Shown: positions 2,338 to 4,236 of the stretch, piece after piece
How the letters are laid out: every line of letters begins with the position of its first letter
Position numbering within the stretch: the stretch's first letter is position 1
DNA from: Hyphomicrobiales bacterium
GTDB taxonomy: Bacteria; Pseudomonadota; Alphaproteobacteria; Rhizobiales; NORP267
Length of the DNA: 52,915 bases
Direction: 5' to 3'
Assembly: GCA_021775875.1 (NCBI GenBank)
Contig: JAJFHA010000014.1
Coordinates: 1-52,915 of the forward strand
The notes under the pieces: generated by a model
Told to the model about the DNA's origin: nothing
Database searches by the model: none
What the model saw: the letters and a program-made list of their open reading frames with translations, nothing else
Position numbers and translations under genes: made by a program

Positions 2338-3039
2338 GCCGTACATCTATGGCGGTATAGCCCCTACGTATCGTGGTTCGCAGGGACGATGTGTGTGAAA
2401 TATTCGCGCAGTTTGGCCTGTAAAGAATATAGTTCGACCGGGCGACTATGCTCGGCAAATCGAGAGTCTATAGCGAGCCTAAGATTTTTGAAATTTTGTA
2501 AGTCATTTAAATATATGGTGCCCAGGGGCGGATTACACACTTAAAGTCATTTACCGTTGATTTCATTGAGGTTTTCTACCGCCAATGTTTGTCTTGTGTA
2601 CCAGAAACAAGAAGCCAAACCAATATTGAGCATTGACCTAGTCACCTTAGAGATACAAATTGCAGGCGAAATAAACGAACCAGATTACCGTGCTGCGGGG
2701 CAGTTTTGTTTGAAATATAGGCAACTGTAGCGATGACGTTCCTGATTGAAGTGATTATGATCTGAAAATTGGATCGAGGCGAACTTCTGAAGAGACGTTG
2801 CACTCCTGAATGTTGATGTAAATTTTCGGCAATGTCAGGCCTCTGCAATTGGCTAGAGGCCAACTTGGCATGTCCACTTTATCCGGTGATCAGGTTACAA
2901 TACGCACATCGGTATATCATCCAGAGGATATCGGATGAATCAGAAAAGCACCCATATTGATAGGTAATTGGGATGTTCGAATTGTCAGATTGTGCTAAAT
3001 AGTGACTTATTCTAGAGGTATAAACAGGGAGAATGCATA
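2338..3039. other. Gene-poor stretch with a possible coding scrap and an att-like repeat
   Basis: No complete gene is supported here. On the minus strand about 2470 to 2364 there is an open stretch reading FAEHSRPVELYSLQAKLREY and on to a TAG, with plausible codon use but no start. It resembles the first helix of acyl-CoA dehydrogenases only loosely. The tRNA-Phe-derived repeat lies at 2514-2534. From 2540 to 3030 the sequence is comparatively AT-rich and shows no coding pattern. The collagen-like gene's ribosome binding site (AGGGAG) is at about 3027. Confidence 0.35.
2514..2534. repeat. Distal copy of tRNA-Phe 3' end (att-like direct repeat)
   Basis: These 21 bases are identical to 4159-4179, the 3' end of the tRNA-Phe gene including its CCA and the outer T-arm, and lie in the same orientation. 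Only the tRNA end is repeated; the next bases diverge (TACACAC here, CGAACC in the tRNA). That is the usual footprint of an integrative element that used a tRNA 3' end as attB. The direct observation is exact identity; the att interpretation is inferred. Confidence 0.75.
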
Positions 3040-3549
3040 ATGAGCGATACGTCGTTTGGGAAATTGATAATGGCCGGGATAATCGGGGCGATTGTGCCAA
3101 CGGTTGCCGGTTATTTTTATATTGATAATTTGAGCCAGCAAGCGGCAAACGCGCGGCCGACGACAGCGTCGATAGTGCAGCAATTGATAACCGATCACGG
3201 GGTTGACCTTAGCGGAGAACAAGGCGAATCTGGCGCTGTCGGCGCAACGGGAGCTGCAGGTCCAAAAGGGGATGCAGGTGATACGGGTCCGGCCGGCGCG
3301 GGCGGGCTTAATGGTGTAGCTGGTCCCCAAGGGTCACAGGGGGAATCCGGACCACAGGGGCCACAGGGAGAAACCGGACCACAGGGGCCACAGGGTGAAG
3401 CCGGACCCCAAGGGCCGCAAGGACCTCAGGGTGAACAAGGTCAGGCCGGTGCCACAGGAGTGGCGGGAACTGCTGGTGCAGCAGCCGATGTCGGTCAAGT
3501 GGTTGAAGATGTCATTCGGCAATTGCGCGCGAGTGGCGCCATTCAATAG
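3040..3549 (+). CDS. Collagen-like repeat protein with N-terminal membrane anchor
   Basis: A 169-residue protein. Residues about 8-28 are hydrophobic and can form one membrane segment or an uncleaved signal anchor. A short helix-prone stretch follows (44-57), then 30 uninterrupted Gly-X-Y triplets (residues 59-148), rich in GPQ, GEQ, GET and GAT. A C-terminal helix-prone tail (150-169) contains [10 protein letters not shown]. Gly-X-Y runs of this length form collagen triple helices in bacterial surface and phage proteins, so a trimeric, membrane-tethered stalk is likely. A GGGAG ribosome binding site precedes the ATG. It lies inside the segment bounded by the tRNA-Phe repeat, with no secretion or adhesin partner nearby. 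Function unknown. Confidence 0.8.
3349..3402 (+). repeat. 27-bp tandem repeat inside the collagen-like gene
   Basis: Two 27-bp units (3349-3375 and 3376-3402) match at 25 of 27 bases and encode GPQGPQGET and [10 protein letters not shown] third, diverged copy starts at 3403. The near-identity at DNA level suggests recent unit duplication, so stalk length may vary between strains. Confidence 0.8.
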
Positions 3550-3572
3550 GCAACCGGGCTCTAATAAATATC

Positions 3573-3626
3573 GAAATATTCCCGGTGTTCCCAATCGGGA
3601 ACCTCGCTGAGAAGCCGGGATATTTC
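3573..3626 (+). terminator. Nested inverted repeat after the collagen-like gene
   Basis: Outer arms GAAATATTCCCGG (3573-3585) and CCGGGATATTTC (3615-3626) enclose a second hairpin TTCCC-AATC-GGGAA (3588-3601). No clear T-run follows, so termination is only one possibility; it could also be a small mobile-element end or a protein site. The position just past the stop codon favours a transcript end. Confidence 0.35.
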
Positions 3627-3705
3627 AATTTAGCCCACTGTAGATATGTCGTTACTCGCGGGACATTTTCTTTAATCTCCGATTTGGAGAAGGGGGATTT
3701 GTCTA

Positions 3706-3957
3706 ATGACCAGTGATCAACGCGATATTCGTCGAAAACTTCGAGTTCTGCGACACGCTCAAACGAATGGGTCTGTCGTCAAGACATGCCAATATTTCGG
3801 CATCGGCCGCGCCAGTTTTTATCGATGGAAAACCGCATATGAAAGCAAGGGCGAAACTGGGCCAATCAAGCGGGGCCGTTCAATATTGCTGGAAGGTTCG
3901 CGACCGCATTGCCATCCCGCCGAGCTTCCAAAAGCTGGGAGTCGCCAAGGGCCTTGA
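3706..3957 (+). pseudogene. Truncated IS481-type transposase N-terminus
   Basis: The first ~50 residues are the helix-turn-helix of an IS481/IS3-like transposase: KLRVLRHAQTNGSVVKTCQY, then FGIGRASFYRWKTAYESKGETG. After that the match stops and the remaining residues look like noise; no integrase core (DDE) follows. AAGGGGGA precedes the ATG, so the start is intact. It lies in the tRNA-Phe-bounded segment, consistent with an eroded mobile region. The intact start could still give a short DNA-binding peptide. Confidence 0.6.
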
Positions 3958-4158
3958 AGCTCGGCTCAGGACGAAGTTCGACCTGCTCGAAAAGGGTGGA
4001 AAGCCTCATCCAAGCCGCTTTAGAACAATCTGAACGAGCTTCGAGAGAATTTCGCGCGCTTGATTGAGGTGCCGCACAGAAATCCAACTCGTTGTTACCC
4101 GAAATGTTACCCAGGCGAATTTTTCAAAATATTTTAATATGGCTAACCTATTGAAAAT

Positions 4159-4179
4159 TATGGTGCCCAGGGGCGGATT
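4159..4179. repeat. Proximal copy of the att-like repeat (within tRNA-Phe)
   Basis: Exact 21-bp direct repeat of 2514-2534. It spans the tRNA-Phe 3' acceptor strand, CCA and part of the T-arm. With the distal copy it delimits a segment of about 1.6 kb carrying the collagen-like gene and the transposase stub. Confidence 0.75.
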
Positions 4180-4236
4180 CGAACCACCGACACGCGGATT
4201 TTCAGTCCGCTGCTCTACCAACTGAGCTACCTGGGC
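4161..4236 (-). tRNA. tRNA-Phe (anticodon GAA)
   Basis: A 76-nt cloverleaf on the minus strand. The acceptor stem GCCCAGG pairs with CCTGGGC, the discriminator is A, and CCA is encoded. The anticodon loop CTGAAAA, closed by GCGGA/TCCGC, gives GAA. The T-arm contains GGTTCGAATCC. It lies just downstream of yacG on the same strand. Its 3' end is duplicated at 2514. Confidence 0.97.

Follow-up and report, generated by a model that had tools for sequence, protein, structure and literature searches.

The window analysed here, a stretch of 52,915 nucleotides that is the entire contig C6 of a 3.13-Mb Hyphomicrobiales assembly, contains a tRNA-Phe gene whose 3' end occurs a second time nearby. The features lying at and around the two copies are collected in Table 1. 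By sequence comparison, the 21-bp core TATGGTGCCCAGGGGCGGATT forms an exact direct repeat that comprises the last 19 nt of the tRNA-Phe and 2 nt of its flank (tRNA positions 58-78), and exact identity between the copies is confined to these 21 bp, which begin in the T-loop and end shortly after the CCA. The distal copy, beyond which the assembly ends after 2.5 kb at base 1 of the window, lies on the 3' side of the tRNA-Phe in the same orientation as the tRNA and is not a tRNA gene, with 13 of 59 upstream positions agreeing. A displaced tRNA 3' fragment is thus present downstream of an intact tRNA-Phe gene in the same orientation, as is required of a tDNA island, and the segment between the copies is 1624 bp long. 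At up to 3 mismatches the core 20-mer has exactly two matches in the window, where 100 shuffles averaged 0.00 matches and never exceeded 0, and exactly two in the whole assembly, a third copy being absent. The preliminary description of this DNA had reported the exact repeat, beginning 2 nt outside the tRNA-Phe gene and reaching into its T-arm, had proposed a search for other copies, and had stated that the copies bracket a collagen-like gene and a transposase stub but no integrase. The repeat, its extent and the bracketed genes are found as described, the stub being N-terminal, and no integrase is recognised between the copies in the frames given to Pfam and PHROGs.

Table 1. Features of the tRNA-Phe locus, with positions in the window
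Feature	Positions	Strand	Support or remark
Dispersed repeat at contig end	1..335	.	98% to C28:1-335
Acyl-CoA ligase gene, outer side of distal copy	817..2337	+	Pfam AMP-binding
Motif ATTTAAATGACTTA, 3 nt after CCA, outer side of distal copy	2499..2512	-	score 12.9
Distal copy of core, outside any tRNA gene	2514..2534	-	
IS6-family transposase fragment, C-terminal part	2710..2811	-	79-82% nt identity to transposase ORFs of G082, G005, G002
Collagen-like gene, intact, 169 aa	3040..3549	+	Pfam Collagen, 3.6e-15
Glutamine-synthetase-like gene, 3' relic	3557..3644	-	convergent with collagen-like gene
IS481-family element, left end and truncated ORF (3706-3957)	3639..3957	+	
Direct GGGTAACA repeat pair, starts 12 bp apart	4093..4112	-	possible arm-type integrase sites
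Motif TTTTCAATAGGTTA, 3 nt after CCA of tRNA-side copy	4144..4157	-	score 10.4
tRNA-side copy of 21-bp core, from T-loop through CCA and 2 nt of flank	4159..4179	-	
tRNA-Phe (GAA), target gene	4161..4236	-	ARAGORN; Rfam RF00005, 73 bits

The content of the segment is a mosaic. The fragment nearest to the distal copy matches an ORF of G082 that is typed IS6. At the other side of the collagen-like gene, the sequence from 3639 matches at 74% and 70% nucleotide identity into full elements of G083 and G062, and the G083 ORF is typed IS481. The collagen-like gene itself is identical to a gene of the relative G001 at 105 of 151 aligned amino acids and 330 of 456 aligned nucleotides, with the N and C termini in common, and the match extends into its 5' flank at 2980-3036, where none of 300 shuffles reaches the upstream alignment score. 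In the adjoining relic, the translated match at 3564-3644 corresponds to residues 462-488 of the glutamine-synthetase-like protein at 63%, with one TAA inside. Neither an integrase nor an integrase remnant is recognised in the segment (Pfam, 8 frames and 3 ORFs; PHROGs, 10 frames), nor is any packaging, relaxase, excisionase or regulatory gene in the frames scanned with Pfam and PHROGs, and the remaining stretches are without recognised coding content in the 10 PHROGs frames and in the 8 Pfam frames and ORFs.

It is noted that a phage origin was also considered from the collagen matches and was rejected, the PHROG tail-fibre matches falling on the collagen repeat; likewise, in the best 20 of 65 phage records the match is to the collagen repeat. 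In fifteen plasmid records the matches fall on the collagen repeat, on the end and ORF of IS481 or, in one case, on the IS6 fragment. The two GGGTAACA repeats near the tRNA could perhaps be arm-type integrase sites. The layout of tRNA, motif and GGGTAACA repeat recurs in one virus contig, L435, whose neighbouring ORFs were judged by eye; as a general arm site the double repeat was discarded, L435 being the only one to have the layout among 19 virus stretches with the pattern.

The motif listed in Table 1 beside both copies was obtained as AAATCAATGACTTA in a Gibbs search of 73 distinct virus flanks, some of them at tRNAs and some not, with the window left out. In the virus flanks it lies mostly near offsets 2-4, 10-14 and 20-23 after the CCA. 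A side observation is that in the virus sites ATTTCAATGACTTA is spaced by approximately one helical turn, at about 3, 12 and 20 nt. In 5000 mononucleotide shuffles, the tRNA-side score was reached 44 times and the distal score 6 times, and among the window's 2020 CCA sites the distal flank is the best at offset 3 and the tRNA-side flank the second. In other bacterial tRNA-Phe pairs the motif reaches at least 8.5, a cut-off picked after the scores were seen, on 10 of 15 tRNA-side flanks versus 4 of 17 bare flanks (Mann-Whitney p 0.007; Fisher p 0.017). The bare flanks of G062 and G310 were also in the virus training set, and with these two dropped the bare count is 4 of 15 (p 0.010). Among virus loci, an ORF similar to the integrase of the host's tRNA-Lys element is present at 24 of 44 with the motif versus 6 of 35 without it, and 23 of those 24 ORFs are within 400 bp of the site. 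The motif offers a sequence test, independent of any integrase gene, for telling attachment sites among tRNA-end repeats and for identifying the element-derived side, with the two sides being divided only partly on the 32 flanks of the other bacterial pairs. The motif string TCAATGACTTA was met in two papers, which by their titles and the beginnings of their abstracts treat other subjects, a kind of search that cannot prove a motif unpublished.

In the host genome, which has 42 tRNA genes, the motif is present at offset 3 after 6 of the 30 tRNA genes examined, namely those for Lys, His, Met, Arg, Arg and Phe. Besides the tRNA-Phe, the tRNAs for Lys and His have distal copies, at 12.6 kb and 2.1 kb. 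The motif may in part be a tRNA-trailer feature, because it also follows the Met, Arg and Arg tRNAs, for which distal copies were not found within ~20 kb. A search for a repeated tRNA end of at least 12 nt within up to 1.5 kb downstream, a reach that falls just short of the tRNA-Phe copy, gave none for the 30 tRNA genes. Genome-wide, the motif pattern with at most 1 mismatch has 12 sites versus 2 for the reversed pattern; two of the 12 are at distal copies, two are in the opposite sense at tRNA-Gly/tRNA-Ser sites, and three have no tRNA end next to them.

The tRNA-Phe end recurs in a similar manner elsewhere in the order. Its 17-mer is present in 121 of 397 genomes, 24 of which have two or more copies; in 18 of the 397, the host included, one contig carries two or more copies, all with the same orientation, and in the other six of the 24 the copies are on different contigs. 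The spacing of the copies is 1.6 kb in the window, 2.06 kb in G351 and up to ~67 kb elsewhere, mostly 7-28 kb. In each of the 15 other pairs in which a tRNA was recognised at one copy, the bare copy lies 3' of that tRNA, and in G064 and G059 the copies examined are both bare. The 20-mer was found in two virus contigs, in neither case inside a tRNA, and the 17-mer lies outside a predicted tRNA at 67 of 82 virus sites (best 80 of 114 stretches), some of which are probably tRNAs truncated at a contig end or overlooked by the finder. In general, the tRNA-Phe end serves frequently as an attachment site. It should be noted that the outer flanks of the two copies are alike in G064 (34 of 38 positions) and in G351 (26 of 38), pairs that by this likeness look like duplications, and agree at 13-21 of 38 in the other pairs, with the window, at 21 of 38, being at the upper end of that range.

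At the tRNA-Phe locus of G001 and G002, which belong to the same genus as the host, and of G005, homology with the window ends at the tRNA-Phe 3' end or at most 14 nt past it, with unrelated genes beyond; the contig of G003 ends 8 nt past the tRNA-Phe. The window's outer flank was common to none of the relatives examined (nine tRNA-Phe loci with longer flanks; 100 relatives searched), and no empty site was found among them at tRNA-Phe. The second tRNA end appears at the nine loci only as a 13-nt match (L066) and a 15-nt match on the opposite strand (L073), these stretches being short enough that the second copy of G082, 20 kb away, lies beyond the one examined. Past the distal copy, as seen from the tRNA, the acyl-CoA ligase gene has a partial orthologue in G002 at 90% nucleotide identity, cut by a contig end, where the alignment stops at the stop codon and the setting is another one. 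Positions 1-335, taken at one stage for synteny shared with G002, were set aside as a dispersed repeat found at contig ends.

Two short cargo pieces in the segment point to a chromosomal locus. G001 has the tRNA-Leu(CAA) first, then the collagen-like gene and after it the glutamine-synthetase-like gene. On contig C25 of the host, an intact glutamine-synthetase-like gene and the tRNA-Leu(CAA) are present, separated by ~7.9 kb of other genes and without the collagen-like gene, and the collagen-like protein has no match in G002. Over 71 nt the relic is identical to the G001 gene at 62 positions and to both the host's own gene and that of G002 at 57, the same 71 positions agreeing at 55 between host and G001 and at 67 between host and G002. 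This 71-bp comparison is suggestive of a G001-like source for the cargo block, which would be closer to it than the host's own locus is; as to how the block arrived, either a transfer or an old internal move is possible. Around the collagen-like gene of G001, no repeat of the tRNA-Leu end of at least 13 nt was found within 17 kb, and no tRNA is near the collagen-like loci of G082 and G042 in the three stretches examined. A search of genome contigs with the collagen-like protein kept 79 loci, with 77 of the matches missing the gene's first residues. As a marker of the element the collagen-like gene was rejected. The preliminary description had named relatives that carry the gene without the repeat as what would speak against its proposal; G001, G082 and G042 are such relatives, and the gene is therefore cargo rather than a hallmark of the element.

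A comparable arrangement is present at the tRNA-His of the host (contig C17), where a distal copy of 23 of 25 nt lies ~2.1 kb downstream. The segment so delimited contains a PHO4-family transporter, and no integrase was found in the two ORFs scanned. For this locus an empty site is available: in G002 a 4-kb query is matched as two blocks that meet at the tRNA end with a 43-bp overlap, the segment being missing, and in G001 as two blocks 42 bp apart. The host's outer flank resembles, by eye, the flank after the tRNA-His of G002, and the tRNA-side flank, with a motif score of 15.8, is unlike that flank, which has a weak motif-like stretch scoring 6.3. As judged from these alignments, the pattern is the expected picture of a putative insertion at a tRNA 3' end, and the case shows that short segments without a recognised integrase occur in the host genome. 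Longer elements with integrases are present at the tRNA-Lys (12.6 kb) and the tRNA-Gly (16 kb). The tRNA-Lys element encodes an Arm-DNA-bind_3/Phage_integrase protein, its site has the motif at offset 3, and its distal copy has the motif on the outer side with a score of 15.3.

The attachment-site origin of the repeat is supported by the frequent use of the site, the flank motif and the sister segment at tRNA-His. We take the 1.6-kb stretch to be the decayed remnant of an integrative element at tRNA-Phe that has lost its integrase, a reading to which we assign a probability of about 0.8. Based on this reading, a tyrosine integrase would have recombined the attP of an element, in which the tRNA-Phe 3' end was present as a copy, with the chromosomal tRNA-Phe end, the integrated element being possibly a prophage, an island or an ICE. 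The element's copy would have restored the tRNA-Phe gene and the displaced copy would mark the opposite edge. The integrase and most of the element would have been lost later, with IS6 and IS481 debris staying behind, an order of events that we infer, and the collagen-like gene and the glutamine-synthetase-like scrap would be DNA of a chromosomal locus that ended up inside. At present the segment probably has no activity unless an integrase is supplied from elsewhere. Several observations run against the decayed-remnant reading: no empty site was found at tRNA-Phe in the relatives examined, no integrase remnant was recognised in the frames scanned, the motif is missing from 5 of the 15 tRNA-side flanks of the other pairs and stands on 4 of their 17 bare flanks, it follows tRNAs for which no distal copy was found, three of its 12 genome-wide sites are away from tRNA ends, some other pairs look like duplications, and at the home of the cargo in G001 the repeat test gave no hint of mobility.

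An older element is probably present, or once was, on the far side of the distal copy towards the acyl-CoA ligase gene, which may possibly be within it. We propose such an accretion because both copies of the window carry the motif and most other distal copies are without it. Two accreted elements are accordingly somewhat more likely than one. What the preliminary description had proposed, an integrative element without its integrase, is thus retained as to the attachment-site origin of the repeat and the absence of the integrase, and is revised as to a single small segment, the motif on the distal outer flank pointing to two accreted ones. If only one element had been present, the chromosomal flank would already have had the motif, with no older element beyond the distal copy. 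This is a tentative possibility that we hold to be appreciable, and several motif-bearing flanks agree with it, namely the weak stretch in the tRNA-His empty-site flank of G002, the flank outside the tRNA-Lys element's distal copy and the trailers of the tRNAs for which a distal copy was not found. It is opposed, however, by the 13 of 17 bare flanks of other pairs from which the motif is absent and by the distal flank of the window scoring above the tRNA-side flank.

It is rather unlikely, in our estimation, that a whole family of tyrosine integrases shares the tRNA-end site made of CCA, 3 nt and ATTTCAATGACTTA and moves integrase-less segments in trans, such that a few integrases shuttle short cassettes. 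The cassettes of this shared-site reading would be the collagen-like gene and the phosphate transporter, and the tRNAs labelled by the site in the host would be those for Lys, His, Met, Arg, Arg and Phe.

For the segment itself, the corresponding alternative is that of a mini-element that can be mobilised in trans, a satellite or an active CIME, which has kept its cores and is excised or transferred by an integrase encoded elsewhere. The cores are identical over 21 bp, the host has in the tRNA-Lys element an integrase whose site bears the same motif at the same offset, and a second short segment exists at tRNA-His. Yet the tRNA-Lys element occupies another tRNA, no packaging, relaxase, excisionase or regulatory gene is recognised in the segment, the segment has no second genomic copy, and the broken IS pieces together with the stretches without recognised genes suggest decay, and we consider this alternative decidedly unlikely. 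The satellite that the preliminary description had offered as its second option has lost ground, no satellite gene being recognised in the frames scanned with Pfam and PHROGs. That the tRNA end was copied by tandem duplication or illegitimate recombination without a site-specific integrase, the gap being filled afterwards by IS activity, is very improbable: the alike outer flanks of G351 (2.06 kb) and G064, which a duplication would give, the upper-end agreement of the window flanks and the IS fragments of two families inside the segment speak for it, but the short exact identity, the order and orientation that obey the integration rule in 18 genomes and the site motif on both flanks are against it.

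With the decayed-remnant reading preferred, the segment can be compared with known systems. The passages on CIMEs in PMC5704250 describe elements in which the integration and transfer genes are lost, attL and attR are kept and accretion occurs with other elements. The window segment resembles them in being att-bounded, with both putative att sites kept as 21-bp identical cores, in that the scanned frames contain no recognised gene for integration or transfer, and in lying possibly in an accreted array; it differs from what these passages describe in being only 1.6 kb long and in having no ICE or IME partner visible beside it (PMC5704250). The internal tyrosine integrase gene of a tDNA island is not found, and we call the segment a remnant and not an island because no integrase match was obtained in the frames scanned; the regulatory, packaging-interference or integrase genes that a phage satellite would own are likewise not found there. 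The segment is thus filed as a decayed, CIME-like remnant, of a kind already known, its descent from an ICE and its mobilisation being putative.

The excerpts of PMC3146451 report Dehalococcoides ssrA islands, 15 of them without an integration module and some in tandem, with 20-bp direct repeats of the RNA gene 3' end and an adjoining 15-bp motif. The repeats of an RNA-gene end, the islands without an integration module and the motif beside the repeat are all in common with the window, whereas the recombinase is a serine recombinase acting at tmRNA there and would be a tyrosine integrase at tRNA-Phe here, and the motif is upstream of the repeat there and downstream here (PMC3146451). In Sinorhizobium meliloti, also a rhizobium, the tRNA-gene prophages and islands have direct tRNA-end repeats at both edges like the window segment; unlike it, the islands covered in the excerpts of that study had integrase genes (PMC11476347), and its main text does not contain the term tRNA-Phe (PMC11476347).

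Note finally that the tDNA islands of Islander share with the window a tRNA gene and a displaced 3' fragment in the right order and orientation (PMC4383910). As the method is described in parts of that source, Islander requires an integrase ORF and at least 2 kb, and the window segment, which has no integrase and is shorter than 2 kb, would be filtered out (PMC4383910). Integrase-less att-bounded segments below 2 kb would thus escape these filters (PMC4383910), yet the host has one at tRNA-Phe, and it has a slightly longer comparable segment at tRNA-His. If the accretion and the trans-mobilisation readings were both true, tRNA loci may collect short cargo from other chromosomal places.

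It is noted that the tRNA-His segment on contig C17 is the second short one in the host genome without a recognised integrase. It contains a PHO4-family transporter, and empty sites, where the tRNA locus lacks the segment, are present in G002 and G001, relatives of the same genus. Its distal copy is adjoined by a repeat of about 90 bp that also lies close to many contig ends of the host assembly and may be one end of an IS present in many copies.

Two further host elements encode integrases. The tRNA-Lys element encodes a tyrosine integrase of 423 aa, with the attachment-site motif at offset 3 (3 nt after CCA) on both flanks. 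The tRNA-Gly(CCC) element, having a repeat of 19 + 18 bp, carries a 607-aa ORF with the domains DUF6538 and Phage_integrase.

For the tRNA-Phe pair in G351, another genome of the order, the two outer flanks resemble each other, a picture closer to tandem duplication than to insertion. Note also that the glutamine-synthetase-like gene is separated from tRNA-Leu(CAA) by the collagen-like gene alone in G001, but by about 7.9 kb of other genes in the host.

Coordinates of the features (G000, host genome; C, contigs; L, stretches read)
Feature	Location	Remark
tRNA-Lys element, 12.6 kb	G000:C2:280267-292951 (L365)	
tRNA-Gly(CCC) element, ~16 kb	G000:C13, L226	
Short segment at tRNA-His	G000:C17, L366, 302-2501	read on minus strand; outside window
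Interval tRNA-Leu(CAA) to glutamine-synthetase-like gene	G000:C25:67700-75630	
tRNA-Phe pair, 2.06 kb	G351:C338:43662-45733 (L395)	
Copy of ~90-bp repeat	window 52779-52865	sequence match
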